Shown in pieces: positions 181-14,667 of a stretch of DNA of 64,000 nucleotides. The stretch lies in assembly GCF_004366735.1 (NCBI RefSeq), contig NZ_SOQX01000003.1:124001-188000 (forward strand), written 5' to 3'. The notes beneath the pieces were generated by a model. The model had not been told where the DNA came from, searched no databases, and saw only the letters and a program-made list of their open reading frames with translations. Each line of letters opens with the position of its first letter. Positions within the stretch are counted from its first letter, which is position 1. This DNA comes from Thiohalophilus thiocyanatoxydans. Its GTDB lineage: Bacteria; Pseudomonadota; Gammaproteobacteria; UBA6429; Thiohalophilaceae. Made by a program: the position numbers and the translations under genes.

Positions 181-693
181 TTATTTTTTGTTACGGACTT
201 GCTCTCGAATGGTATCCAGCTGTTCGGCGATGGTTTTTTTGACTTCTTTTTCGATATTGACCACGGTGCGCATCAACGTGTTGCGGACCTCTTTTTCCAG
301 GCTTGCCTGCAGATGGTCGAGAAACTCCAGCATGGTGTCGCTGTCGGTTTGTTTCGGATCGCTCATGGTAACCGGCTCTTCGCTGTCAGGTGAGGGAGTG
401 GTGTTGTTTGTTGTTGTATCATCTTCGTCGGTTATTTCCGGGATCTCCATCTGCTCGATTGGTGCATCATAGGCGCCGGGTTCAATAATGTCCTCCAGTA
501 CCGGCACCACCGGCTCGTTACCGGCTCCGCGGCGCGGTTTTTGCGGATTTGCGGGATCATTGGCACGGCTGATACTGTCACGCGCGGCGGTGAGCTTGGT
601 CTCGCTCTGTTCGAGCAGACTCTTGATCGACTCCAGCGCATTGAGCAGGTTATCTTCCGTGGCCGGATCGCTTGGGTCGTTCTGTTTGCTCAT
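181..693 (-). CDS. Hypothetical acidic protein with C-terminal coiled coil, in the pepA-holC operon
   Basis: I do not recognise a family for this 170-residue protein. It has no signal peptide or membrane segment. The N-terminal third holds a charged helical stretch (about residues 15-45), the middle (about 50-110) is acidic, Pro/Thr/Ser-rich and probably disordered, and the last 60 residues look like an amphipathic coiled coil with a basic end. Its ATG overlaps the holC stop by ATGA, so it is translationally coupled to holC and cotranscribed with pepA-holC. It occupies the place where valS often follows holC. A role near DNA polymerase III chi can be suggested only from position. Confidence 0.75.
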   Translation of the reverse strand: MSKQNDPSDPATEDNLLNALESIKSLLEQSETKLTAARDSISRANDPANPQKPRRGAGNEPVVPVLEDIIEPGAYDAPIEQMEIPEITDEDDTTTNNTTPSPDSEEPVTMSDPKQTDSDTMLEFLDHLQASLEKEVRNTLMRTVVNIEKEVKKTIAEQLDTIREQVRNKK

Positions 694-1130
694 GATGCCT
701 TGTCGTCAAGGTTATGGGTGTTAAGTTCATAACCGCGGTCACGATAAAACCGAAAACGCTCCCGCCCCGCCTGTCGTGCCTGTTCATCCCCGGTGATGAG
801 TTCGGCCACCCGCTCGAAGCGGCTGAAAAAGGGCGGGACCGTTTCGCCCAGATTGATCAATACCTGATTGTGCTCTTTCGGTTCATCATCACAGCCGATT
901 ACGATAGCGGCTTGTGAGGCCACTTTATCATCCTGCAGGCTGTGCGGGATGAAACTGCCGTCACGAAACGTCCACAGAAGTTGATCGAGCTGTTCGGCCT
1001 GCTGCCGGTCGTCGGCATGTATATATACAGTATGGTTCAGTGTGTAGGCTTTTTCAGCCAGGCGACAGGCCAGGCGCTGGCGGGCCTGGGCGCGATTATC
1101 CTCGACGATGTAGAAGTCGACCCGGGTCAT
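690..1130 (-). CDS. holC: DNA polymerase III subunit chi
   Basis: The chi subunit belongs to the clamp-loader complex and links it, with psi, to single-stranded DNA-binding protein at the replication fork. The 146-residue product matches the family length and begins with the typical strand-helix pattern MTRVDFYIV. The start is the ATG at 1128-1130, whose A is also the last base of the pepA stop (TGATG overlap); an upstream in-frame ATG would lie inside pepA. The pepA-holC order is conserved in gammaproteobacteria. The next gene overlaps the holC stop by ATGA, so the three genes are tightly coupled. Confidence 0.93.
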   Translation of the reverse strand: MTRVDFYIVEDNRAQARQRLACRLAEKAYTLNHTVYIHADDRQQAEQLDQLLWTFRDGSFIPHSLQDDKVASQAAIVIGCDDEPKEHNQVLINLGETVPPFFSRFERVAELITGDEQARQAGRERFRFYRDRGYELNTHNLDDKAS

Positions 1131-2632
1131 CAGAGCTGGTATTTCTTGCCGCACTGGTCAAGCAGGTACTGGGTCAGCAGCGGCACCGGACGACCGGTGG
1201 AGCCCTTTTCGGCGCCGCTTTTCCAGGCGGTGCCGGCGATGTCCAGATGGGCCCACTTGAACTTTTCGGTAAAACGGGAGAGGAAGCAGGCGGCGGTAAT
1301 GGTGCCGGCCTCGCGCCCGCCGATGTTGGCCATGTCGGCAAAGTTGCTCTTGAGCTGCTCCTGATACTCATCCCACAAGGGCAGTTGCCAGGCGCGGTCC
1401 CGACTGGTCTGGCCGGCGGCCAGCAGCGCGTCGGCCAGCGACTGGTCATTGCTCAGCAGTCCACAGGGGTGATTACCCAGGGCGACGATGCAGGCACCGG
1501 TCAATGTGGCGGTGTCGATGACGGCTTTGGGTTTGAAGCGCTCGCTGTAGGTGAGGGCATCGCACAGGACCAGTCGGCCTTCGGCGTCGGTGTTCAGTAT
1601 CTCGATGGTCTGGCCCGACATGCTGGTGACCACGTCCCCCGGCTTGTTGGCGTTGCCGTCGGGGAGGTTTTCGCAGGCGGGCACGATCGCCACTACATTG
1701 AGCGGCGGTTGCAGTTCGCCAATGGCCTGCATGGTCCCGATCACCCCGGCAGCGCCGCCCATGTCGTATTTCATTTCGTCCATGGCGGCGGCCGGCTTGA
1801 TGGAGATGCCGCCGGCATCGAAGGTAATGCCCTTGCCGACCAGCACATACGGTTTATCGCCTTTTTTACCCCCGTTATATTCCATGACGATCAGTTTGGG
1901 GGGCTGGCGACTGCCTTTGGCGACCGACAGGAAGGCGCCCATCTTCAGCTCCTCAATGGCCTTTTGGTTGAATACCTTTACTTTCAGGTTGTTATAGCTT
2001 TTAAGCTGCTTGCTGGTCTGGCTGGCCAGGTAAGTAGGCGTACAGACATTGCCGGGCAGATTCCCCAGGTCGCGGGTGAAGTTGGCGCCCTTGCCGATGG
2101 CCTCGCCAATCTTCAGGCCGGTGCGGGCCGTCTTGAGCGCCTTCTCTTCCACGCAAAGCTGCAGCTTGCCCAGGGGGTAATCGGGTTTTTCCGGTTTGCT
2201 GAAGGTCTGGTGGTAGCGATACAGTGTCTGGTGGACCAGCTCCGCGGCGCGGCGCACATTCCAGGCGCGCGAGCGATCCTTGACCGGCAGATCGGTGAGA
2301 TAGCAGGCGGCGTCGCGGGCGCCGGAGTCGTGGGCCGCCTTGATGGCGACGGCGAGTGTTTTGGCGTACTGGGTGGCATCGAATTCATCCGCTTTGCCGC
2401 AACCGACCAGCAGGACGCGTGTGGCCTTGATACCCGGCAGTTTGTGCAGCATCAGGGTCTGGCCGGCCTTGCCGTCCATATCTCCCTGTTTCAGAATACG
2501 GTTGATCTCGCCGCCACAGGCCTTGTCCAGCGCTTTGGCGTGAGGATCGGGGCGGCGTTTGTCAAACACGCCGACGATGAGGCAACTGCCGGCTTGTTGT
2601 TCGACCGGTGTCGATTTGAGCGTAATATTCAT
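1130..2632 (-). CDS. pepA: Cytosol (leucyl) aminopeptidase, M17 family
   Basis: This is a hexameric two-metal aminopeptidase that releases N-terminal residues from peptides; in enterobacteria it also acts as a DNA-binding architectural protein. The 500-residue length fits the family. The M17 signature NTDAEGRL lies near residue 350 and a GKGITFDAGG metal-binding block lies about 90 residues before it. I place the start at the ATG at 2630-2632, which has an AGGA ribosome site about seven bases upstream and gives the usual short N terminus, rather than 72 bases further out. It heads the pepA-holC operon and diverges from lptF, the standard arrangement. Confidence 0.96.
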   Translation of the reverse strand: MNITLKSTPVEQQAGSCLIVGVFDKRRPDPHAKALDKACGGEINRILKQGDMDGKAGQTLMLHKLPGIKATRVLLVGCGKADEFDATQYAKTLAVAIKAAHDSGARDAACYLTDLPVKDRSRAWNVRRAAELVHQTLYRYHQTFSKPEKPDYPLGKLQLCVEEKALKTARTGLKIGEAIGKGANFTRDLGNLPGNVCTPTYLASQTSKQLKSYNNLKVKVFNQKAIEELKMGAFLSVAKGSRQPPKLIVMEYNGGKKGDKPYVLVGKGITFDAGGISIKPAAAMDEMKYDMGGAAGVIGTMQAIGELQPPLNVVAIVPACENLPDGNANKPGDVVTSMSGQTIEILNTDAEGRLVLCDALTYSERFKPKAVIDTATLTGACIVALGNHPCGLLSNDQSLADALLAAGQTSRDRAWQLPLWDEYQEQLKSNFADMANIGGREAGTITAACFLSRFTEKFKWAHLDIAGTAWKSGAEKGSTGRPVPLLTQYLLDQCGKKYQL

Positions 2633-2813
2633 ACGGATTCCTGTTTTTGCCTGCTTTGAATCGGATTTGCCGGATCGTAACCCCGTTACCGCTCTGCTGG
2701 CCAATCATAAAAAAATCGCCAAACACAGGGTTAATTCATCGTGATGCACAATATAATACAGTATTGTTTGTGTAGATAAAGAACGAGCCGGTTTTCAACC
2801 CCCTGATTCTGAC
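2633..2813. promoter_or_regulatory. Divergent pepA/lptF control region
   Basis: This 181-base gap must hold both promoters. A perfect TATAAT at 2752-2757 could be the lptF minus-10, but no good minus-35 lies at the right distance. It sits inside an inverted repeat with arms ACAATA (2748-2753) and TATTGT (2762-2767). No transcription start can be assigned with certainty. Confidence 0.35.
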
Positions 2814-3905
2814 GTGATTATAGCCCGGTACCTGGTTAAGGAAGTTTTTCTCACCTTTTTGGCGGTGGCCCTCGTGCTGTTGCTGATCGCGCTCAGTGCG
2901 CAGCTGGTGGGCCTGTTCGATGATGTGGCCCGGGGTTCGCTGCAGGTGGACATGGTGCTGCAGATCTTCGGGGTGCGGATTCTCAGCCTGCTGGTGTTTA
3001 TCCTGCCGTTGGCATTGTATCTGGCAATTATTCTGGCGCTGGGTCGCCTGTATCGCGATAGTGAAATGGCGGCTATCAATGCCTGTGGTATTGGCACCGG
3101 CTATATTCTGCGGGCGGTGCTGGGGCTGGCGCTGGTGGTGGCGGTGCTGCAGGGCGTGCTCAGCTTGCAGTTGTCGCCCTGGGCGGAACATCAGGTCCAG
3201 CGCCTGACTGCCGTGGCGCAGGCACGTGGCGATATCCAGGGTATCTCACCGGGCCGTTTTCAGGAGATGAGCGAGGGCAGTGGCGTGCTCTACGTCGAGG
3301 AAGTGAATCGTGAGCAGAATCGGATGCATAATGTGTTTGTGCAGCAGCAACGTGAAGGGGGGCAATCGATTATCCGTGCCCGGTCCGGTCATCAGATGAC
3401 CGAGGAAGAAAACGGTGATCGTTTTATGGTCCTGGAGTCGGGCTATCGTTACGAGGGCGAGCCGGGGCAAGATGACTATACAGTGGTTGAATTTGAAAAA
3501 CACGGGATACGTATCCAGGAGAAGGAGCCCGAGATCACCAGCCGCAAGCACAAGGCTATCCCGACCATTGAACTCTGGAAAGAAGATAAAAGGGGGTATA
3601 CCGCTGAGCTACAGTGGCGTATCTCATCGGCCCTGATGTGTCTGATCCTGGCATTCGTAGCGGTGCCCTTGAGTGTGACCTCACATCGTCAGAATCGGTA
3701 TGGCAAACTGGCGATCGCGATTGTGTTGTATATGGTACTGACTAACTTGCTGACTGTCTCTCGTAACTGGCTGTCTGATGAAAAGATATCGCCCTGGGTA
3801 GGGCTGTGGTGGGTGCATGGAGCGGTGTTACTTCTTGCCGTAATCCTGTTATTGCGTCAAAGCGGTATCCGACACTGGTGGCACAAGGGAGCGACAAGCA
3901 GATGA
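2814..3905 (+). CDS. lptF: LPS export ABC transporter permease LptF
   Basis: LptF and LptG are the membrane subunits of the LptB2FGC machine that extracts lipopolysaccharide from the inner membrane. The 363-residue protein has the family layout: two or three N-terminal membrane helices (about residues 8-110), a periplasmic beta-jellyroll-type domain (about 125-260) and three C-terminal helices (about 270-355). The start is the GTG at 2814 because the product then begins MIIARYLVKEV, matching homologues; no ATG fits, and the ribosome site is weak. The stop overlaps the lptG start by ATGA, implying translational coupling. Confidence 0.95.
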   Translation: MIIARYLVKEVFLTFLAVALVLLLIALSAQLVGLFDDVARGSLQVDMVLQIFGVRILSLLVFILPLALYLAIILALGRLYRDSEMAAINACGIGTGYILRAVLGLALVVAVLQGVLSLQLSPWAEHQVQRLTAVAQARGDIQGISPGRFQEMSEGSGVLYVEEVNREQNRMHNVFVQQQREGGQSIIRARSGHQMTEEENGDRFMVLESGYRYEGEPGQDDYTVVEFEKHGIRIQEKEPEITSRKHKAIPTIELWKEDKRGYTAELQWRISSALMCLILAFVAVPLSVTSHRQNRYGKLAIAIVLYMVLTNLLTVSRNWLSDEKISPWVGLWWVHGAVLLLAVILLLRQSGIRHWWHKGATSR

Positions 3906-4963
3906 AAATACTGGAGCGTTACATCGGCCAGTCCGTTATCGTCGGCGTGTTTTCGGTACTTGCTGTACTGGTCGCCCTGTTCGCTCTGCTCGGCTTCGTG
4001 GATGAGCTCGATCAGATCGATCGGGGCAATTATACGATCTGGCATGCGTTGCTCTATACCCTGCTTAACATGCCGCGCCAAATGTATGAAATCTTTCCCA
4101 TGGCCGCCCTGTTGGGAACCATGTTGGGGTTGGGGACACTGGCCAATAATCGCGAGCTGGTGGTCATGCGTACCGCGGGTTTGTCATTGACACGGATCGT
4201 CTGGGCTGTCATGAAAACCGCCGCCATGTTGATTCTGCTGGCTATGGTGATTGGTGAAGTTATCGCACCGCCAGTATATGAATACAGCAACCAGAAACGT
4301 GTGCAACTGATGGGGGCAAAGATCAGTCTGAATACCCAGTATGGCCTCTGGGCCCGGGACGGGAGTACCTATATCAACGTGCGTCGCATTGATGATCAGG
4401 CAAAGCTGCGCGGGATTCATTTGTATACTTTCGATGGCCAGCGCATGGAGACGCTTATGCGGGCCAAAAGTGCCCGTTATGATGGTGAACAATGGTTATT
4501 GAAGGGGGTGACCCGCTATGAAATCGGCGATCAGGCATTGCACGAGCGTAAAGTCGAGGAGATGCCCTGGAGTACGCTGCTCGATCCGGATTTGATAAAT
4601 GTGGTATCGGTGGATCCGGATACCCTGGCGGTCTGGAAACTGTATGACTACATCGGTTACCTCCACGATAATGGACTGGACTCCGGGCAGTACGAACTGG
4701 CGATATGGGGCAAGGCGGTGATGCCGTTTACCCTGGCCGCGATGGTGTTGCTGGCCGTGCCGTTCGTGTTCGGGGCACAACGTCATACCAGTATTGGGCA
4801 ACAGATTATGATCGGATTTTTGGTCGGTATCGTGTTTTATATCGGCAACCGGCTCGCCGGGCAGATGGGACTGGTCTACGAGCTGCCGCCGGCGCTGGCA
4901 GCGGCCTTGCCCACGGCGCTGGTGATCGGCGCGTCGCTACTCTGGTTCCGCCGATTACGCTAA
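3902..4963 (+). CDS. lptG: LPS export ABC transporter permease LptG
   Basis: This is the partner permease of LptF in lipopolysaccharide export. The 353-residue product shows N-terminal membrane helices (about residues 12-30, 60-85 and 100-125), a central periplasmic beta domain and three C-terminal helices. The start is the ATG at 3902-3904 overlapping the lptF stop; the frame stays open upstream, but this start gives the conserved MKILERYIG terminus. A repeat block rather than a clear terminator follows the gene, and the next gene converges on it. Confidence 0.95.
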   Translation: MKILERYIGQSVIVGVFSVLAVLVALFALLGFVDELDQIDRGNYTIWHALLYTLLNMPRQMYEIFPMAALLGTMLGLGTLANNRELVVMRTAGLSLTRIVWAVMKTAAMLILLAMVIGEVIAPPVYEYSNQKRVQLMGAKISLNTQYGLWARDGSTYINVRRIDDQAKLRGIHLYTFDGQRMETLMRAKSARYDGEQWLLKGVTRYEIGDQALHERKVEEMPWSTLLDPDLINVVSVDPDTLAVWKLYDYIGYLHDNGLDSGQYELAIWGKAVMPFTLAAMVLLAVPFVFGAQRHTSIGQQIMIGFLVGIVFYIGNRLAGQMGLVYELPPALAAALPTALVIGASLLWFRRLR

Positions 4964-4965
4964 TA

Positions 4966-5100
4966 CCCTTCGGGTAGGTGCCAGGAGCTAGTTTTTATAT
5001 CCCCTCCCCTGGAAGGGGAGGGTTAGGGAGGGGTGATAGAAAATCAGTTTCCGCAAACCACCTGGCACCTAGCACCTAGCAACTAGCCCCTATCCTTCGG
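4966..5100. repeat. Inverted heptanucleotide repeat block with a CCCTCCCCT hairpin
   Basis: The left arm (4974-4992) reads, on the complement, as the 7-mers CTAGCTC and CTGGCAC. The right arm (5062-5092) runs CTGGCAC, CTAGCAC, CTAGCAA, CTAGCCC, so the arms face each other. Between them, CCCTCCCCT (5002-5010) pairs with AGGGGAGGG (5014-5022). The stop codon of the RDD gene (5083-5085) lies inside the right arm. No T-run marks this as an ordinary terminator. Confidence 0.75.
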
Positions 5101-5607
5101 CAGAAGGATAACGCGGGTGTGGGTTATGCGTTCCCGCCAGCCATTGGGCCAGTTGTCGAATCCCAGCCAGAGCAGACCAATCAGGACGATGCTGCCGTGG
5201 GGCAGATTTTGCAGCCAGCGCAGGATGCCCGGCAGCTGTATTTGGGGGTTGAAGTACACTGCCAGTCCCAGCATCAACACCAGCCAGCCGGGCAGCCCGC
5301 TTAAAAAACGCAGCAGCGCGGCGAGCCAGTCCAGCGCCCCGGCGTTGTCGCGGATCAGTTGCAGGCGCCAGGCACGCATGCCGAGTGTTTGCCCGCCGTG
5401 GGTCCAGAATCCGCCAAAAAAGCCAAAGCAAATGAGCAGAAAATAACCGGTCAGTAGCAGGTTGTGACCCTCGATCGCCTCGCCACCGGTAAAAATCAAC
5501 GGGATAGCCGAGGCGATAAAGAGTATCGCCAGTAGCAACAGCGCGTCGTACAGCATGGCGAACAGACGTCGATGGAGCGGTGCCGACGGGAGGGCTGAAA
5601 CGGTCAT
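5083..5607 (-). CDS. RDD family integral membrane protein
   Basis: RDD proteins are small polytopic membrane proteins of mostly unknown function. The 174-residue product begins with a short Arg-containing segment (HRRLFAMLYDALLL, about residues 12-25) and has four hydrophobic segments (about 20-40, 50-70, 100-120 and 140-155). A GQTLGMRAWRLQL block near the middle is characteristic of the family. The chosen ATG at 5605-5607 has AGGA about seven bases upstream; a TTG two codons earlier is less likely. The gene converges on lptG, and its 3' end runs into the heptanucleotide repeat. Its 5' region is shared with the DUF2173-like operon. Confidence 0.85.
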   Translation of the reverse strand: MTVSALPSAPLHRRLFAMLYDALLLLAILFIASAIPLIFTGGEAIEGHNLLLTGYFLLICFGFFGGFWTHGGQTLGMRAWRLQLIRDNAGALDWLAALLRFLSGLPGWLVLMLGLAVYFNPQIQLPGILRWLQNLPHGSIVLIGLLWLGFDNWPNGWRERITHTRVILLPKDRG

Positions 5608-5669
5608 GGTCAAATCCTGAGCAGCAGTAGCACTGGCATGGTCCGGTAATCTTGCGAAGAACGGTCCTA

Positions 5670-5689
5670 TTTTATAGGGACCTATAAAA
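5670..5689. promoter_or_regulatory. 20-bp palindrome, operator candidate
   Basis: TTTTATAGG (5670-5678) and CCTATAAAA (5681-5689) form perfect 9-base arms around a 2-base centre. The site lies 63 bases before the RDD start and 134 bases before the first DUF2173-like gene, and it is not part of the dispersed repeats. It also contains minus-10-like TATAAA and its complement. The cognate regulator is unknown. Confidence 0.5.
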
Positions 5690-5744
5690 AAACTCTATAT
5701 GGCATTCTTTGTCAGGTCTGTTATTACTTAAGAAACGGTTGTCA

Positions 5745-5758
5745 TTGATCTGAATCAA
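5745..5758 (+). promoter_or_regulatory. FNR/ANR-type binding site
   Basis: TTGAT-CTGA-ATCAA is an exact match to the FNR/ANR consensus TTGAT-N4-ATCAA. It lies 65-78 bases before the first DUF2173-like start codon. A TATAAA at 5799-5804 would place the box near the class I activator position but leave a very short leader, so the exact promoter geometry is uncertain. Oxygen- or redox-responsive control of the three downstream genes is the natural inference. Confidence 0.65.
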
Positions 5759-5822
5759 GCAATGGCAATCAGCCGCAACTTGCCAGCGGCAACATAACTA
5801 TAAAACACAAAGAGGGGACTGC

Positions 5823-6179
5823 ATGAGCGTCATATCCGATCTGGTGGCGACACCGGGCGTCATCGCAGCAGGCGAGTATACCTACCGGGGCGATCGATTT
5901 ACCTACGACGGGCAGCTCGATTACGAAACCGCACGCATGGCCTCGATCATGTGCCGCGCCACTACCATGGCCGTGCACATGGAAACGGACATGCTCAAAC
6001 ATCTCAAAGCCGATTGCGGCTGCGCGCCGGCGCGGGGCTGGGTGGTGCGGGGTGACAAGATGACGGTTTGCGTGATGGCCAATGTGTTCTGCTTTATCGA
6101 TAACGCCAATGGTTCGTTGAACGACATCATGGCCTATCTGCGCGAGCATGTGGAGAGTTCTGAAACAATGCTGGTATGA
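5823..6179 (+). CDS. DUF2173-like small protein, copy 1 of 3
   Basis: The 118-residue soluble protein opens with the pattern LVATPGVIAAGEY, then has a cysteine cluster (ADCGCAP, about residues 63-69) and a block reading GWVVRGDKMTVCVMANVFCFI (split here only for description). This layout resembles what I recall of the uncharacterised DUF2173 family, compact roadblock-like proteins found in sulfur- and iron-oxidising proteobacteria; the assignment is from memory. It heads a three-gene tandem of paralogues and lies just behind a perfect FNR box. The ATG has AGAGGGG directly upstream. The biochemical role is unknown. Confidence 0.75.
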   Translation: MSVISDLVATPGVIAAGEYTYRGDRFTYDGQLDYETARMASIMCRATTMAVHMETDMLKHLKADCGCAPARGWVVRGDKMTVCVMANVFCFIDNANGSLNDIMAYLREHVESSETMLV

Positions 6180-6223
6180 CCGGCTACATAATAATAAACC
6201 AATCAGTCTTTAAGGAGTGACCA

Positions 6224-6562
6224 ATGGCCGATCTGGATAAACTGATCAACCTCGATGGCGCGGTTGCCGCATTCAATTTCAGTAGCAAAGGGGAGCTGCA
6301 GGAGTCGCGTATCAGCGCGGACAGCGAAATGACTGACGCCATTCTCGATCTGGTGGCGCATGTCTGTGTCGCCAATACCTCGATTGCCACCATGCAGGCG
6401 CGGGGCTGGGAGAACGTGACCGGTTCCGGCGGGTTTTACCCGGTCAAGGGCTTTTCACTGATCGGTTTTGACTGGACTGTCATCGCCAATGAAGAGGCCG
6501 GCGTGATTATGCCAAATGACAATACCGATTATGAAGCAGCTTACGCGGCGCTGGAAGCCTGA
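6224..6562 (+). CDS. DUF2173-like small protein, copy 2 of 3
   Basis: The 112-residue paralogue keeps the N-terminal LINLDGAVAAFNF pattern and a later WTVIAN block, but it lacks the Cys cluster of copy 1 and the GWVVRG segment shared by copies 1 and 3. It has one Cys near residue 48. It begins at an ATG preceded by AAGGAG, 44 bases after copy 1. The divergence suggests subunits of one hetero-oligomer or separate partners rather than simple dosage, but this is inference. Confidence 0.75.
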   Translation: MADLDKLINLDGAVAAFNFSSKGELQESRISADSEMTDAILDLVAHVCVANTSIATMQARGWENVTGSGGFYPVKGFSLIGFDWTVIANEEAGVIMPNDNTDYEAAYAALEA

Positions 6563-6571
6563 GGAGGCCAC

Positions 6572-6904
6572 TTGATTAAACAGATCATGATCCTTGATGG
6601 TGTGATGGCCGTTGCGCATTTTCGCGATGATGGCGAGCTGGTGGAAGGCTATGGGATGGGGGGACAGGAGGAACAGGCTAATCTTGCCCACTTTGCGCAT
6701 AACTACAAGCGCCTGGTGCAGGGTAATGCCGACCAACTCTCCATGTTTACCGGTATCCGCGGCTGGACGCCGCCCGGCGGCTGGGTGGTCCGCGGCGCGC
6801 GTTACACGGTCTGCAGCGTGGGCAACGTGGTTTGCCTGTTCGATGGGAGCGAAGGTCACCTCAACGAGGTGATGCAGGAGTTACGGGGTGCCTCGCAATG
6901 GTAG
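6572..6904 (+). CDS. DUF2173-like small protein, copy 3 of 3
   Basis: The 110-residue product shares LDGVMAVAHF near the N terminus, a GWTPPGGWVVRG segment and a following YTVCSVGNVVCLF strand with copy 1. The start is the TTG at 6572, four bases after GAGGAGG; a later ATG at 6587 would remove the conserved first strand. It follows copy 2 by nine bases, so these two are certainly cotranscribed. No ordinary terminator is visible before the converging glycosyltransferase gene. Confidence 0.72.
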   Translation: MIKQIMILDGVMAVAHFRDDGELVEGYGMGGQEEQANLAHFAHNYKRLVQGNADQLSMFTGIRGWTPPGGWVVRGARYTVCSVGNVVCLFDGSEGHLNEVMQELRGASQW

Positions 6905-6953
6905 GGCCGGATTCCAGGGTCTGGCTATCGGGTCCCTGTCATTGGCGGAGTAG

Positions 6954-8072
6954 TTACTCGCTTTTGCCCGTGACATCCCGGCCTAACAGATCCGAGTAGA
7001 CTGCCAGGGTTCTGGCGACGGTGATATCCGGGTTGAACGTGGTCCGGATGCGCTCTTCCGCGGCAATGCCCATCTGCTTGCGCCGTTCAGGGTCGCGAAG
7101 CAGTTCGTTCAGCGCATTGGCCAGTGCGCCCGGATCACCCGAGGCAACGATGCGGCCACTGATCCCTTCCTCGACCAATTCCGGACTGCCGCCGGAGTCG
7201 GTCACGACCGCCGGCACTTGTTGACTCATCGCCTCGATCACGGTGCGGGGCAGCCCCTCGCGCCGCAGGGAGGGCAGCACGAAAACATCGAGTGCCCCGG
7301 TCAGACTGGCCGCATCGGCGCGCCAGCCGAGAAAATGGATGCGCCCGGCCGCCGGGCTGCGCGCAACCTGTCTGGCAATGGCTCTGTCGGCGACCTTGCC
7401 GATCAGGACCAGGTGAACAGCCCGGTTTTCGAGTCTCTCCAGTGCTTCGATCAGCACCGGAATGCCCTTGCGCTTGCGCATTTGGGCGACGCAACCGATC
7501 ACCGTCGCGTCGGCGGGAATCCCGAATTCGGTGAAATCGTCAGGGACGTTCTCGTGAGGCCACCAGTCGGTCTCGTGCCCCTTGTGCACGGTGACCACTT
7601 TCTCCGGCGGAATTCGCCAGCCCAGGAAGCGGTTGTGCAACAGATCCTGGCGAATTGCCTCGCAGACGCAGATGATGCGATCGACCCGGGGATGCAGGAA
7701 ACTGCTACGCGAGGAGGGGTTCAGCCAGTGCAGATTGCCGACGATGCCGCGGTAGGCAACCAGCCTGGGCGGCAGATCCCGGATTGCCCGGATCGTATTG
7801 GAGAGGGCGGTTTTGGTATAGGTATGGACAATCTCGGGTTGCTCGGCCAGCACCAGTTGCCGCAGGCGCGCAATGGCCTCGGGATCGATCCGCTTGCGAA
7901 TGTCCAGATGGTGAACCGGAATCCCCGCGGCCTGCATGTCATCCTGGAATTTTGCCCCGCTTCGACACACCACGATGACATCGATGCCCCGGGCTTTGGT
8001 TCTGAGCAACTGGTGGCGCTCGCCCACATCCGTGCCTTGAAAAACATGCAAAACTTTCAGTGTCTGACCCAT
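6954..8072 (-). CDS. Glycosyltransferase family 4 (GT-B fold)
   Basis: The 372-residue soluble protein has the two-domain GT-B layout. The N-terminal acceptor domain opens with KVLHVFQG. The C-terminal nucleotide-sugar domain carries VIGCVAQMRKRKG (about residues 190-203), HFLGWRAD (about 245), and the GT4 signature EGLPRTVIEAM followed by GGSPELVEEG (about 275-305). It probably transfers a sugar to lipopolysaccharide, a lipid or an exopolysaccharide, but acceptor and donor cannot be read from sequence. It stands alone between the DUF2173-like operon, which it faces, and purL, from which it diverges. Confidence 0.88.
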   Translation of the reverse strand: MGQTLKVLHVFQGTDVGERHQLLRTKARGIDVIVVCRSGAKFQDDMQAAGIPVHHLDIRKRIDPEAIARLRQLVLAEQPEIVHTYTKTALSNTIRAIRDLPPRLVAYRGIVGNLHWLNPSSRSSFLHPRVDRIICVCEAIRQDLLHNRFLGWRIPPEKVVTVHKGHETDWWPHENVPDDFTEFGIPADATVIGCVAQMRKRKGIPVLIEALERLENRAVHLVLIGKVADRAIARQVARSPAAGRIHFLGWRADAASLTGALDVFVLPSLRREGLPRTVIEAMSQQVPAVVTDSGGSPELVEEGISGRIVASGDPGALANALNELLRDPERRKQMGIAAEERIRTTFNPDITVARTLAVYSDLLGRDVTGKSE

Positions 8073-8290
8073 GCTGTATGCTGACCCCGGTTATATTGCC
8101 AAAACCGGCAGTATACCCCGACTGTCGCAAGCTTCGGTACTCCTGAACCGGGACTTGCCCGGTGTAATAACTGAGTTTGCGGTTTAGTTGTTGCGTTGCA
8201 AGGCGGCTTCCGCGTCACTCGCTCCCCGGCTCGGAGATCGTGTATGATCCGTGTTTACCATCAATGCCAATCAAATCCGGGATTCCGCGC

Positions 8291-11200
8291 ATGTTGCAAC
8301 TCCGAGGTGGCTCGGCCCTGTCGTCCTTTCGTCTGGAAAAATGTCTGGCCGCTCTGCGCATCGAGGTGCCTGAAGTAGCGGATTTGCAGGCGATCTATTT
8401 GCACTTTGTCGAAACTGAGCCGCAACTGGAGGCCGAACAACGCCAGCGCCTCGAGAACCTGCTCGCTTATGCCGAACCGCCCGCGCGGCCCTTGCAGGGC
8501 CATGACTTTCTCGTCATCCCCCGTCCCGGCACTATCTCCCCGTGGTCGAGCAAGGCGACCGATATTGCGCACAATTGCGGTCTGCAAAACGTGCAACGGA
8601 TCGAGCGCGGCATTCTCTATACCCTGACGCTTGGCGACGGTAACGAACTGAGCGCGCAACAGGCCCGGCGCCTGGGTGCGGCGCTGCACGACCGTATGAC
8701 CGAGGCGGTGTTCCGCGATACCGGTGAAGCTCAACGGCTGTTCCGTCATCCCGATCCGGCGCCGCTGACCGAGGTCGATGTGCTCGGTGGCGGAGGCGAT
8801 GCCTTGCAGCGGGCCAATACCGAGCTGGGCCTGGCACTGGCCGGGGATGAAATCGATTACCTGGTGGAGAATTTCCAGTCGCTGGGACGCAACCCCAGCG
8901 ACGTGGAACTGATGATGTTTGCCCAGGCCAATTCGGAACATTGCCGGCACAAGATTTTCAATGCCGACTGGATCATCGACGGCCAGCCCCGCGACAACTC
9001 CCTGTTCGGGATGATTCGCAACACCTACCAGCAGCATAGCGACGGCATTCTCTCCGCCTACAGTGACAACTCGGCGGTGATCGAAGGCCATGGGGGCCGG
9101 CGCTTTTATCCCGGGTCCGGTACGCGCGAGTACGCCTATCATGCCCAGGACATCCATATCCTGATGAAGGTCGAGACCCACAACCATCCCACCGCGATTG
9201 CCCCGTTTCCCGGTTCCGCCACCGGGGCCGGCGGTGAGATCCGCGACGAGGGGGCGACCGGTCGGGGTTCAAAACCCAAGGCCGGGCTGTGCGGCTATTC
9301 GGTCTCCAATCTGCGCCTGCCCGACTGCCCCCGGCCGTGGGAGACCGATTACGGCAAGCCGGGACGGATCGTCTCGGCGCTGGACATCATGCTCGAGGCG
9401 CCCATCGGCGCGGCGGCCTTCAATAACGAATTCGGCCGGCCCAACCTGTGCGGTTATTTTCGGACCTATGAGGAGCGGGTACCGGGCCCGCAGGGCGAAG
9501 AGGTCCGCGGGTATCACAAGCCGATCATGCTGGCCGGCGGGCTGGGGAATATCCGCGACGATCACGTTGCCAAGAATGACATCCCGCCCGGGGCGCAGAT
9601 CGTGGTACTCGGTGGCCCGGCCATGCTGATCGGCCTGGGGGGCGGGGCGGCCTCGTCCATGGCCACCGGGGAGAGCCTGGAGGATCTCGACTTTGCCTCG
9701 GTGCAGCGGGGCAATCCGGAGATGGAGCGTCGTGCCCAGGAGGTGATCGATCGCTGCTGGCAGCTGGGCGAGGCCAATCCCGTCATCAGTATTCACGATG
9801 TGGGCGCCGGCGGCCTCTCCAATGCCCTGCCGGAGCTGGTCAACGACAGTGGGCGCGGCGGGCGTTTCGAGCTGCGTGCCGTGCCCAACGACGACCCGGG
9901 CATGTCACCCCTGGCGATCTGGTGCAATGAAGCCCAGGAGCGCTATGTGCTGGCTGTGGGGCCCGAAGATATGGCGCGGTTTGCCGAGATCTGCCAGCGG
10001 GAACGCTGCCCCTGGGCGGTGGTCGGCGAGGCGACCGAGGAGCGCCGCCTGGTCGTGGGTGATGGGCATTTCGACAACACGCCCATCGATATGCCGCTGG
10101 AAGTGTTGCTGGGCAAGCCGCCCAAGATGCTGCGCGACGTTCATCATGCCCCGTTTAGTAAACCCGGCTTCGACACCGCCAGCGTGGATCTGGCGGAGGC
10201 CGCCGAACGGGTGCTGGCCCTGCCGACGGTGGCTGACAAGAGCTTTTTGATTACCATCGGCGATCGCACCATTACCGGCCTGGTGGCCCGGGATCAGATG
10301 GTCGGACCCTGGCAGGTACCGGTGGCTGACGTGGCGGTGACTGCCGCCAGTTACGATACCTGCGCCGGTGAGGCGATGGCGATGGGCGAGCGTACGCCGG
10401 TGGCGTTGCTGCACCACGCCGCCTCGGCCCGGCTGGCCGTCGGGGAAGCGCTCACCAACCTGGCGGCCGCCCCGGTACCGGACCTGTCACGGGTCGTACT
10501 GTCGGCCAACTGGATGGCCGCGGCCGGCCATCCCGGCGAGGATGCCGGTCTCTTTGATGCGGTGCAGGCGGTGGGCATGGAGCTGTGTCCGGCACTGGGG
10601 ATCACCATTCCCGTGGGCAAGGACTCCATGTCGATGAAAAGCGTCTGGCAGGAAGGCGGCGAAACCCGCTCGGTGACCGCACCGCTGTCGTTGATCGTTT
10701 CGGCCTTCGCGCCGGTGAGCGACGCGGGCCGCACCCTGACACCGCAGCTGCGCAGCGACCGGGGGGCAACCCGGCTGATTCTGATCGATCTGGGCAAGGG
10801 GGCCAACCGGCTTGGTGGCTCCTGCCTGACCCAGGTCTACAAGCAGCTGGGCCAGCACCCGGCGGATCTTGACGATCCCCTGGCGCTGAAACACTTTTTC
10901 AATGTTATTCAATCGCTTAACGAGCAGGGTCGACTGCTGGCCTACCACGATCGCGCCGATGGCGGGCTGTTTGCGAGCCTCTGCGAAATGGCCTTTGCCG
11001 GCCGCACCGGCCTGCAGATCCGGCTCGACGAGCTGGGCGAGGACGCCGTCGCCAGCCTGTTCAGCGAGGAGCTGGGGGCGGTGATTCAGGTGCAAGACAG
11101 TGAACTGGCAGCGGTGCAGGAGGCGTTACATGAGGCCGGTCTGGGCCATTACAGCCATGTGATCGGCAGCCTGCGCGAGGATGATCGACTGGTTTTCGAA

Positions 11201-12187
11201 CATCACGGTGAGACGGTACTGGACGGGACACGCACCCACTGGCGCCGTATCTGGAGTGAAACCAGCTACCGCATGCAGGCGCTGCGCGACAATCCCGAGT
11301 GCGCCCGCGAAGAGTACGATAACCTGCTGGATGAAACCGATCCGGGCCTGTCACCCCATTGCAGTTTCGATCCGCAGGAGGACGTTGCCGCGCCGTATCT
11401 CAACCTCGGCCAGCGTCCGCGGATTGCCGTGCTGCGCGAGCAGGGTGTGAACGGCCAGATCGAGATGGCCGCGGCGTTCGATCGCGCCGGTTTTGCGGCG
11501 GTGGATGTGCACATGAGCGATGTCATCAGCGGGCAGGTGTCGCTCAACGATTTTTCCGGGCTGGTCGCCTGTGGAGGCTTTTCCTACGGTGACGTGCTGG
11601 GTGCCGGTGGCGGCTGGGCCAGCTCGATTCTGTATAATCCGCGCGCCCGCGACGAGTTCGAGGCGTTTTTCACCCGCCCGGACAGTTTCGGGCTGGGGGT
11701 GTGTAACGGCTGCCAGATGCTCTCCCATCTGCGGGATCTGATTCCCGGCGCCGGCCACTGGCCGCGTTTTGTACGCAACCGCTCCGAGCAGTTCGAGGCG
11801 CGCCTGGCGCAGGTCGAAGTCCTCGAATCACCCTCGATCCTGCTGGCCGGGATGGCCGGTTCCCGGCTGCCGATTGCCGTGGCCCACGGCGAGGGGCAGG
11901 CCCGCTTCGATATTCCGGATGCCGCACGGCGGCTGCAGACTGAACAATTGGTGAGCTTGCGCTATATTAATAATTACGGTGAAGCCACCGAACGGTATCC
12001 CTACAATCCCAATGGTTCTCCTGAAGGGATTACCGGCCTGACGACCATGGATGGGCGCTTCACCATCATGATGCCGCATCCGGAGCGTGTATTTCGCAGC
12101 CTCCAGTATTCATGGCATCCTGATGCGTGGGGCGAAGAGGGTCCCTGGCTGCGGTTGTTCCGTAACGCGCGCCGCTGGCTGGATTGA
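8291..12187 (+). CDS. purL: Phosphoribosylformylglycinamidine synthase, large single-chain form
   Basis: This enzyme makes FGAM from FGAR, glutamine and ATP in the fourth step of purine synthesis. The 1298-residue length matches the single-chain proteobacterial type, with an N-terminal domain, a duplicated ATP-binding AIRS-like core and a C-terminal class I glutamine amidotransferase. The nucleophile is Cys1138 in GVCNGCQM, and the core contains [16 protein letters not shown]. The ATG at 8291 gives the conserved MLQLRGG start; a longer reading from 8177 has no family support. The gene is followed directly by the HD-GYP gene. No PurR-like site was recognised upstream. Confidence 0.97.
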
Positions 12188-12228
12188 GACAGACTGATTC
12201 CCTGACAGATGTGCAAACAGGGCAAGCG

Positions 12229-13470
12229 ATGAAGGTTAAACTTGATGTCGCCAGTCTCAAGGAAGGGATGTTTGTTAGCGACCTGGATTGCGATTGGGCA
12301 CAAACCTCGTTTTTGCTCGAGGGCGTGCTGATTTCCGATGACGAGGAGCTGGCCGAGCTCAATCGTTGCTGTGCCCATGTGTATGTCGATACCGAACGTT
12401 CCCATGATTCGGTGCTCTCCGAGCTGGAAAGTCTGGCCAGTCGGCCGCCATCGGCGGTAGCCACCGCGGCGAAACAGCAAGCGGAACAGGAAGCCGAGCG
12501 CGAGGAGCAGGATTTTCAGGAGACACTGCAGGAAGCCCGGCCGGTTCACAGTCGGGCCAAAAGTTATATCGAAACCCTGATGGATGATGTGCGGCTGGGT
12601 AACAGCCTCGATACCGCCACGGCGCGTGATCTGGTCACCGAGATCACCGAAAGCATCACCCACAGCCCCAACGCGATGGTCTGGCTGTCGCATCTCAAAC
12701 ACCGCGATGAATATACCGTCACCCACTGTATGAATACCTGTATTCTGGCGGTGACCTTCGGCCGTTATCTGGGGATGAACAAGGAAGAACTGGAACTGAT
12801 GGGGCTGGGCGCGCTGTTGCATGACATCGGCAAGATGCGTGTCCCACTGGAGATCCTCAACAAGCCGGGTCGCCTGACACCGGAAGAGTTCGAAATTATC
12901 AAGACCCATGCATCGAAAGGCCATGAATTGCTGGTGTCCAGAGGGGATATTCCCCGGGAGTCACTCGATGTCGTTCTGCATCACCATGAACGGATCAGTG
13001 GCAAGGGTTATCCGCACGGCCTGATGGGCGAACGGGTTAACCGCATGACCAAGATCGTCTCCATTGTTGACGTATACGATGCCATTACCAGCGATCGTTG
13101 CTATCACGATGGTATCGCGCCCTACGCGGCATTAAAGAACATGTACGAGTGGATCAGCGAGGATTTCGAGCAGGATCTGGTCGAGCAGTTCATCAAATGC
13201 CTGGGTATCTATCCCGTCGGCAGTATGGTGCAACTCAATCTGGGGCAGATCGGTGTGGTGGTTTCCGCCAGTGAAAAAAGCCGTCTGCGACCCATCGTGC
13301 TGCTGGTGATCAACAGCAAGGGCGAGCGCTATGTCAAACCCAAACTGATCAACCTGGCTCATCCGCGCTGGCGTGACGGTAAACAGAAACTGGAAATCCG
13401 TAAAATTCTCCACAACGACGAATGCGACATCGACCTGCCGTCCGTCATTCAGGACGAATCGCTGATCTGA
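12229..13470 (+). CDS. HD-GYP domain cyclic-di-GMP phosphodiesterase with DUF3391
   Basis: HD-GYP enzymes hydrolyse cyclic di-GMP and so control motility and biofilm choices. The 413-residue protein starts with a DUF3391-type domain (KVKLDVASLKEGMFV), has a charged helical linker (about residues 80-115), then the HD domain with H198-D199 in LLHDIGK, HHHE at 251-254 and GKGYP at 258-262. All the usual metal and GYP residues appear intact. The start is the ATG at 12229; starts overlapping the purL stop are possible but add a non-conserved tail. It has no membrane or sensor domain, so it is a stand-alone cytoplasmic enzyme. Confidence 0.92.
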   Translation: MKVKLDVASLKEGMFVSDLDCDWAQTSFLLEGVLISDDEELAELNRCCAHVYVDTERSHDSVLSELESLASRPPSAVATAAKQQAEQEAEREEQDFQETLQEARPVHSRAKSYIETLMDDVRLGNSLDTATARDLVTEITESITHSPNAMVWLSHLKHRDEYTVTHCMNTCILAVTFGRYLGMNKEELELMGLGALLHDIGKMRVPLEILNKPGRLTPEEFEIIKTHASKGHELLVSRGDIPRESLDVVLHHHERISGKGYPHGLMGERVNRMTKIVSIVDVYDAITSDRCYHDGIAPYAALKNMYEWISEDFEQDLVEQFIKCLGIYPVGSMVQLNLGQIGVVVSASEKSRLRPIVLLVINSKGERYVKPKLINLAHPRWRDGKQKLEIRKILHNDECDIDLPSVIQDESLI

Positions 13471-13489
13471 TCCTCTTTTCCTGCTCTGG

Positions 13490-13650
13490 TATGAATAACG
13501 CAGAGTTCGCGGAGGCGCAGAGATATGATTTTTAATGTTGAATGTTAAATTTTGAATTGCGACGCTGCGTCTCATTTAAAATTTAAACCTGCTAATTATT
13601 TTCCTCTGCGACTCCGCGCCTCTGCGTGCTCCGCGTTGAAAAACTCCACC
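13490..13650. repeat. Nested inverted repeat block (8-9-mer outer, 7-mer inner arms)
   Basis: Outer arms are AACGCAGAG-type units (13497-13523) facing CTCCGCG/CTCTGCG units (13601-13640). Inner arms are 7-mers such as GTTGAAT, GTTAAAT and TTTGAAT (about 13531-13557) facing ATTTAAA units (13573-13587). It separates the HD-GYP gene from the ABC transporter genes and shows no protein-coding potential. Confidence 0.8.
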
Positions 13651-13746
13651 TGGATAACCATGAATTTTTTGGTGTAGCAAGGCGCCTGTCTATTGGTGGA
13701 TGTCTTTTGTTACAATACCCGCCGGTTCGGTTTTTCAAGTGAGTTT

Positions 13747-14667
13747 ATGTCCAACGCGCTGACTATTCGGGGGTTGACCAAGACCTATCGCGGCGGGGTG
13801 CAGGCCCTCAAGGGGGTCGATCTGGATGTGCGCGAGGGGGATTTCTTCGCCCTGCTGGGCCCCAATGGCGCGGGCAAGTCCACCACCATCGGGATTATCT
13901 GTTCGCTGATCAACAAAACCGCCGGGAGCGTCGAAGTGTTCGGTCACGATATCGACCGTGATCTGGAGGCGGCCAAGAGCTGTATCGGTCTGGTGCCGCA
14001 GGAGTTCAACTTCAACCAGTTTGAGCCGGTAGGAGAGATTGTTATCAACCAGGCCGGCTATTACGGTATCGATCGCAAGCTGGCCCGTGAGCGCGCGGAA
14101 ACCTATCTGCGCCAGCTGGAGTTGTGGGACAAGCGCCACGTCATGGCGCGGGAGTTGTCCGGCGGGATGAAGCGGCGCCTGATGATCGCGCGCGCGCTGG
14201 TGCACGAACCTCGACTGCTGATTCTCGATGAACCGACTGCCGGGGTGGATATCGAGATCCGCCGCTCCATGTGGAAATTCCTCAGCAAGATCAACGCCCA
14301 GGGAACCACGATCATCCTGACCACCCATTACCTGGAAGAGGCCGAGCAGCTGTGCCGGCATATCGCCATCATCAATCACGGCGAGGCGGTCGAGCACACC
14401 GAGATGAAATCACTGCTGATGAAGCTGCACGTGGAAACTTTCGTACTGGATCTGGGCGAGACCATCGATACGGTGCCCCAGGTCGAAGGCTATAATCTGA
14501 CCATGCTCGACAAGCGCACGCTCAGCGTGGATATCAGCAAGGCGCAGAGCCTCAATCAGCTGTTCGAGGCATTGAGTCGCCAGGGGCTGCATGTGCTCAG
14601 TATGCGTAACAAGACCAATCGACTGGAAGAGTTGTTCGTGCGCATGGTCGAGGAGGACAACGCATGA
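13747..14667 (+). CDS. yadG: ABC transporter ATP-binding protein, YadG type
   Basis: This is the ATPase of an ABC-2 family exporter. The 306-residue protein has Walker A GPNGAGKST (about residues 38-46), the ABC signature ELSGGMKRRL (about 137-146), Walker B LLILDEPTAGVD (about 157-168) and the switch His in TTHYLEEAE. It closely follows the pattern of E. coli YadG. The start is the ATG at 13747, giving MSNALTIRGL; a TACAAT at 13711-13716 may be its minus-10. Its stop overlaps the permease start by ATGA. The exported substrate is unknown. Confidence 0.9.
   Translation: MSNALTIRGLTKTYRGGVQALKGVDLDVREGDFFALLGPNGAGKSTTIGIICSLINKTAGSVEVFGHDIDRDLEAAKSCIGLVPQEFNFNQFEPVGEIVINQAGYYGIDRKLARERAETYLRQLELWDKRHVMARELSGGMKRRLMIARALVHEPRLLILDEPTAGVDIEIRRSMWKFLSKINAQGTTIILTTHYLEEAEQLCRHIAIINHGEAVEHTEMKSLLMKLHVETFVLDLGETIDTVPQVEGYNLTMLDKRTLSVDISKAQSLNQLFEALSRQGLHVLSMRNKTNRLEELFVRMVEEDNA

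Follow-up and report, generated by a model that had tools for sequence, protein, structure and literature searches.

The three small DUF2173 genes that stand in tandem in Thiohalophilus thiocyanatoxydans are a real, old three-gene unit. Models predict the roadblock/LC7 fold for copies 1 and 3 and, less firmly, for copy 2. Our preferred reading, held with middling confidence, is that the products form an obligate three-subunit roadblock assembly that regulates a client protein and would be raised by FNR in the genus under study. This reading builds on the homology of the copies, their order, the early origin of three classes, an FNR box and the set of genes bearing that box, together with a fold that is predicted; from these we infer that the products hetero-assemble, that they regulate a client and that FNR activates the genes in vivo.

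The window, a stretch of 64,000 nucleotides from T. thiocyanatoxydans, carries the open reading frames within 5745-6904 as given in the initial annotation, which had described them as three tandem DUF2173-like paralogues of 118, 112 and 110 residues (Table 1). A profile search confirmed that observation. All three copies match PF09941 far over its curated cut-off of 26.1 bits, the matches span positions 2-105 or 2-106 of the 106-position profile, and this common match demonstrates homology among copies whose identity to copy 1 is only 20% (copy 2) and 30% (copy 3). No Pfam family other than PF09941 was found for any of the three at E up to 1. Across the whole genome, the only DUF2173 matches are these three.

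Table 1. Coordinates of the triplet, its upstream elements and related loci (positions refer to the window or to the locus named).
Feature	Location	Position	Strand	Details
RDD-family gene	Window	5083-5607	-	Divergent from the triplet
Overlapping inverted repeats	Window	5666-5685		CCTATTTTATAGG and ATAGGGACCTAT; in the gap from the divergent RDD gene to the triplet
FNR box	Window	5745..5758	+	TTGATCTGAATCAA (TTGAT-N4-ATCAA, exact); 64 bases between its end and the copy 1 ATG
DUF2173 copy 1	Window	5823..6179	+	118 aa, ATG start; PF09941 126 bits, 9.8e-37
DUF2173 copy 2	Window	6224..6562	+	112 aa; PF09941 105.5 bits, 2.3e-30
DUF2173 copy 3	Window	6572..6904	+	110 aa, TTG start; PF09941 108.2 bits, 3.2e-31
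Type B triplet by ccoNOPG	L071	8067-14669		Co-directional with ccoN
Type B triplet by ccoNOPG	L083	1811-9075		Co-directional with ccoN; other genus of the same family
SoxX behind exact FNR box	L184	1501-2030		Same genome as the window
Separate cluster with two Robl_LC7 genes	L208	3436-8928		Same genome as the window

The copy 1 model, built from a 60-sequence alignment (mean pLDDT 89.2, pTM 0.82), runs in the order helix, two strands, long helix, three strands, helix. Its first Foldseek hits are roadblock domains, with a best E of 1.5e-3 and none at or below 1e-3. With VIA-align, 3kye_C (Z 13.3, rmsd 2.9, 107 residues) is followed by archaeal roadblocks, Ragulator (5y3a_B, Z 12.5) and MglB (6h5b_C, Z 11.7 over 108 residues). 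Copies 2 and 3 were predicted as a single artificial chain with an artificial linker, which gave a mean pLDDT of 88.9 but a pTM of 0.57, and in which the last helix of copy 2 continues across the linker into copy 3; the two-domain model therefore predicts no interface and says nothing firm on packing. Within it, helices and strands follow the order seen in copy 1. Copy 3 matches 3kye_C (Z 15.5, rmsd 1.8, 107 residues) and 5y3a_B (Z 14.5), and copy 2 is covered by few of the structural-match rows of the joint chain, namely 9h4q_Y (Z 9.9, model residues 3-116), 1y4o (Z 9.7) and 4ftx_A (Z 9.2). The roadblock/LC7 link that had been raised beforehand thus finds its backing in the predicted models of copies 1 and 3, less firmly in that of copy 2, and not in profiles, as Robl_LC7 (PF03259) has no match in copies 1-3 at E up to 1. 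Put differently, the triplet has a predicted roadblock fold, yet it is filed outside Pfam Robl_LC7. Searches by sequence for a solved relative returned none that is credible: one gave a chance-like match at E 0.52, and the other gave none.

The distribution of the family was followed in two genome draws, both searched by the family profile. Among the window's own genome and 57 relatives, 31 of 58 genomes are DUF2173-positive, 29 with exactly three copies and two with six. The class draw contains 46 positive genomes out of 369 (39 with three copies, four with a single copy, and one each with two, with six and with four, the last on fragmented contigs). Five genomes are common to both draws, and in the union of 72 positive genomes exactly three copies occur in 64, the others having six (two genomes), four (one, on fragmented contigs), two (one) or one (four). 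Within the window's family, DUF2173 is present in 30 of 37 members; some of the seven negative genomes are incomplete, and one of the negatives (G012) has a positive genus mate (G023). In the phylum draw, the window's own genome is the only positive one among 378.

Copies 1, 2 and 3 follow one another in this order on a single strand in all 80 named loci, which were kept from 111 found via copy 3 patterns; because copy 3 served as the query, this set would miss loci without copy 3. The titles of these records include Thiohalobacter, Thiogranum, Sedimenticola, Competibacter and Contendobacter. A contig end cuts copy 1 in one locus (L175). In 17 of the 80, with starts chosen by rule, copy 3 begins before copy 2 is finished, by 1 or 4 bases. 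The triplet is also carried by two records titled Phycisphaerales (L146) and Synechococcaceae (L161), perhaps misassigned contigs of gammaproteobacterial origin. Given the occurrence of all three copies together and their fixed order, the multi-subunit assembly proposed in the initial annotation is well motivated, while the two-domain model leaves the arrangement of its subunits open.

A FastTree phylogeny of 119 selected sequences, which includes some places twice and was midpoint-rooted only for drawing, puts each copy class in one clan. Local support for the wide clans of the three classes is 0.745, 0.953 and 0.984. Divergent triplets are informative here. Eight distinct ones (nine rows, as L055 and L083 are one place) were drawn from four families: the type B triplets, comprising L047 and L058 from one genus and L071 and L055/L083 from two genera of one family, and the triplets L070, L082, L088 and L092. 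In all eight, copy identity follows position, which implies that the triplication predates the split of the types and that the order has been kept since. One- or two-copy DUF2173 genes, sampled from four of the five genomes that have them (loci L033, L034, L093 and L094; genomes G097, G098, G314 and G334; only G231 was left unsampled), lie outside all three clans. Their proteins belong to the same Pfam family as the triplet, but the sampled ones fall outside its copy classes.

The three classes have also kept distinct residues, as counted over 97 distinct copy 1, 96 copy 2 and 96 copy 3 sequences with duplicates counted once. These counts left out L033, L034, L047, L049, L052, L055, L058 and L175, and the copy-by-copy alignments left out the same loci with L021 in place of L175. 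As previously described, copy 1 has a Cys cluster (positions 44, 65, 67, 83 and 90), copies 1 and 3 have GWVVRG in common, and copy 2 has neither, reading GFSLIG at that place. In copy 1, RGDR (22-25), G72, W73 and Cys83 are invariant (97 of 97), Cys44 is present in 96 and Cys90 in 93 of the 97 sequences, Cys65 in 71 and Cys67 in only 38. Copy 2 conserves H46, A50-N51, MQARGWE and GFYP and is without the Cys pair found in copies 1 and 3. Copy 3 conserves FRDDG, Q.N.DQ and GW.PP.GW, together with Cys81 (82 of 96) and Cys88 (93 of 96). In the divergent triplets these copy 1 residues vary: by eye, the type B proteins of L047, L055 and L058 lack RGDR and Cys83 and retain Cys44 and Cys90, L070 has RGDR and is without Cys90, L082 and L088 read RGDQ, and L092 has neither form.

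The box upstream of copy 1 is exact, as had been noted, and is the sole exact FNR box in the window; at least one box occurred in 6 of 100 window shuffles. In the single other genome of the genus that was searched (L013), the box stands at an equal distance with both half-sites kept and three of the four bases of its spacer different; the stretch around it is itself well conserved. Nothing resembling a sigma-70 promoter was found close to the box. The genome encodes FNR (NF008365, 283 bits against a cut-off of 228), and the protein contains CQKCSLYQLC and ETISR, motifs characteristic of FNR that include the cluster cysteines. Genome-wide there are 15 exact boxes, 14 besides that of the triplet, and the pattern read backwards occurs nowhere. 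For 10 of the 15, plausible target starts lie 39 to 151 bases after the box: SoxX (39), UbiT (48), two c-type cytochromes (50 and 108), copy 1 (64), a NosR-like ORF (81), ccoN (87), NnrS (101), an OmpW-like protein (117) and a pyrophosphatase (151), of which NosR, OmpW and the pyrophosphatase score under their NCBIfam cut-offs, the ORFs of NosR and the pyrophosphatase also extending beyond the locus. The other five boxes were assigned no target. The same genome also has what we take, by eye, to be a DNR-like regulator (L198), so the box may serve more than FNR alone. Because the box is exact in both the window and its genus mate, FNR is encoded and other boxes precede low-oxygen genes, FNR control of the triplet is credible, and judged from these sequences it is likely, in the window's genus. 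The position of SoxX (Table 1) hints that thiosulfate oxidation in this genome may be under oxygen control.

Outside the genus the picture is different. Upstream regions of 250 bases were scanned in 98 distinct cases (36 of 134 were dropped as short or duplicate, and L033 and L034 were left out). An exact box occurs in three of the 98, with 0.02 expected, namely the window (L001), L013 and the divergent L047, which is the sole exact case beyond the genus. One-mismatch boxes occur in three more regions (0.84 expected), 182 and 190 bases before the start in L100 and L140, and in L058. In L047 and L058, which belong to one genus, the first base of the box lies 37 and 36 bases before the start. 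Conservation of the box before orthologues, whose absence would by the first account of this locus count as a refutation, is therefore largely lacking. Another link to oxygen appears in two genera of another family (G062 and G207), where a type B triplet stands upstream of ccoN, co-directionally and at a distance of 336 and about 790 bases, with ccoO, ccoP and ccoG behind ccoN. No FNR-like site was found before these two ccoN-linked triplets at up to one mismatch. On the side opposite ccoNOPG, both triplets are flanked by an ORF that we take, by eye, to be bioD-like. That low oxygen recurs around triplets in three settings is at most suggestive. With the box missing before nearly all orthologues, the proposal that the system is used when oxygen falls fits some lineages but does not extend to the family as a whole, and FNR control is no family trait.

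Other upstream elements were also seen in the 98 regions. Six related words occur in 15 sequences each, which are assumed to be close relatives, and one further word, ATTT-N14-CTAT, occurs in 14 regions against 0.5 expected. The overlapping inverted repeats of the window (Table 1) are found in L001 and L013 and in none of the 96 other regions scanned; they may perhaps constitute an operator.

The surroundings of the triplet offer no lead to a client, as the flanks in the window and at many other loci are housekeeping genes that differ between lineages, recurrent neighbours elsewhere having been judged by eye only. A Pfam search of the ten proteins at 181-14667 identified HolC, PepA, two LptF/G proteins, an RDD protein, a glycosyltransferase, PurL, an HD-domain protein and an ABC ATPase, and the protein at 184-693 had no Pfam match. 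The divergent RDD gene adjoins the triplet in 43 of the 80 named loci (41 of the 73 with 900 bases upstream and two of the remaining seven), an adjacency that is read as an inherited place beside lptF/G. Elsewhere in the genome, a separate cluster contains two Robl_LC7 genes (Table 1), around ORFs that we recognise as GTPase-like, ABC ATPase-like and truncated-globin-like.

In the mechanism that we propose, three different subunits of roadblock/LC7 fold would have arisen by old duplications and been inherited as one unit. Roadblock proteins usually dimerise, and copies 1-3 most likely assemble with one another into a soluble hetero-oligomer. Its client would be a protein encoded elsewhere, which the oligomer would scaffold or regulate. 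In the window's genus, a fall in oxygen probably leads FNR to raise expression of the triplet alongside that of the cbb3 oxidase, of denitrification genes and of the genes for anaerobic ubiquinone synthesis; the triplet would thus have been recruited to low-oxygen control in some lineages. Taken as a whole, the interpretation first attached to the locus is partly supported.

Three further readings of the same data have to be weighed. The triplet might be a redox or metal sensor, in which Cys83, Cys90 and, on the long helix, Cys44 of copy 1 form a disulfide switch or a metal or cluster site whose state is relayed by copies 2 and 3. The near-universal presence of these residues and the frequency of Cys81 and Cys88 in copy 3 agree with such a role, as does the proximity of certain triplets to FNR boxes or cbb3 genes; in the predicted hairpin (a two-residue turn joins strands 80-85 and 88-93), Cys83 can moreover be deduced to lie opposite Cys90. 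Yet the divergent copy 1 proteins of L047, L055 and L058 dispense with Cys83 and that of L070 with Cys90, and a buried Cys can be kept for packing. We regard the sensor as unlikely. It is likewise improbable, in our estimate, that the triplet regulates a Ras-like GTPase encoded elsewhere, as MglB does MglA. MglB and Ragulator subunits are among the structural matches, and a separate roadblock pair lies near a GTPase-like ORF in the genome; however, no small GTPase family was found among the ten proteins around the window triplet, and Robl_LC7 is absent from 19 of the 30 triplet-bearing members of the family, including the genus mate G001 (11 of 30 triplet-bearing members have a match, as do two of the seven others).

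A part in sulfur oxidation is quite unlikely. In two Sulfolobaceae, a DUF2173 gene, termed a putative membrane protein, is reported to rank among the genes that elemental sulfur induces most strongly (99-fold and 32-fold), whereas in a third the change is 2.3-fold and not significant (PMC11323534). Both dsrA and SoxX are encoded in the window's genome, and an exact FNR box precedes SoxX. In the class draw, dsrA (hand-counted as present at E < 1e-30, fragments included, with some dsrA-negative genomes incomplete) occurs in 33 of 46 DUF2173-positive and 86 of 323 negative genomes, a difference with a Fisher p of 8e-9 uncorrected for kinship. Inside the window's family, however, this enrichment is gone (23 of 30 with DUF2173 against 6 of 7 without; p 1.0), so kinship can explain the class-wide signal and a link to reverse Dsr was set aside. 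In addition, 13 genomes of the class draw have DUF2173 but not dsrA, and 12 of them carry three copies, and the Pfam search found no sulfur genes among the ten window neighbours. Very unlikely, in our view, is a reading in which a bacterial three-subunit roadblock complex, with an invariant Cys site in one subunit, would respond to oxygen or redox state and, independently of any GTPase, scaffold the cbb3 oxidase or other respiratory proteins. Our preferred reading remains the client-regulating assembly of three roadblock subunits.

A literature search returned one paper naming DUF2173, and the titles and abstract openings of the others did not mention a DUF2173 triplet. The triplet makes a concrete, testable unit of an uncharacterised Pfam family, and studies of DUF2173 in these bacteria should treat the three genes together. 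In eukaryotes, signalling platforms are built from roadblock proteins, whose fold is best known from subunits that act as scaffolds or control switches, and in bacteria such proteins take part in polarity control; a bacterial system of three specialised subunits of this kind, all obligate and with no adjacent GTPase gene, would offer a simple model of how such platforms diversify. Among the closest known systems is LAMTOR/Ragulator, in which several different roadblock subunits are combined in one assembly and whose subunit 5y3a_B matches both copy 1 and copy 3. Unlike in that complex, neither a scaffold subunit nor a Rag GTPase was seen next to the triplet, whose assembly is only proposed. 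MglB, whose fold resembles that predicted for copy 1, is described as a dimer of one protein acting on the GTPase MglA (PMC11016934), whereas the triplet, which has no GTPase gene beside it in the window, consists of three distinct proteins.
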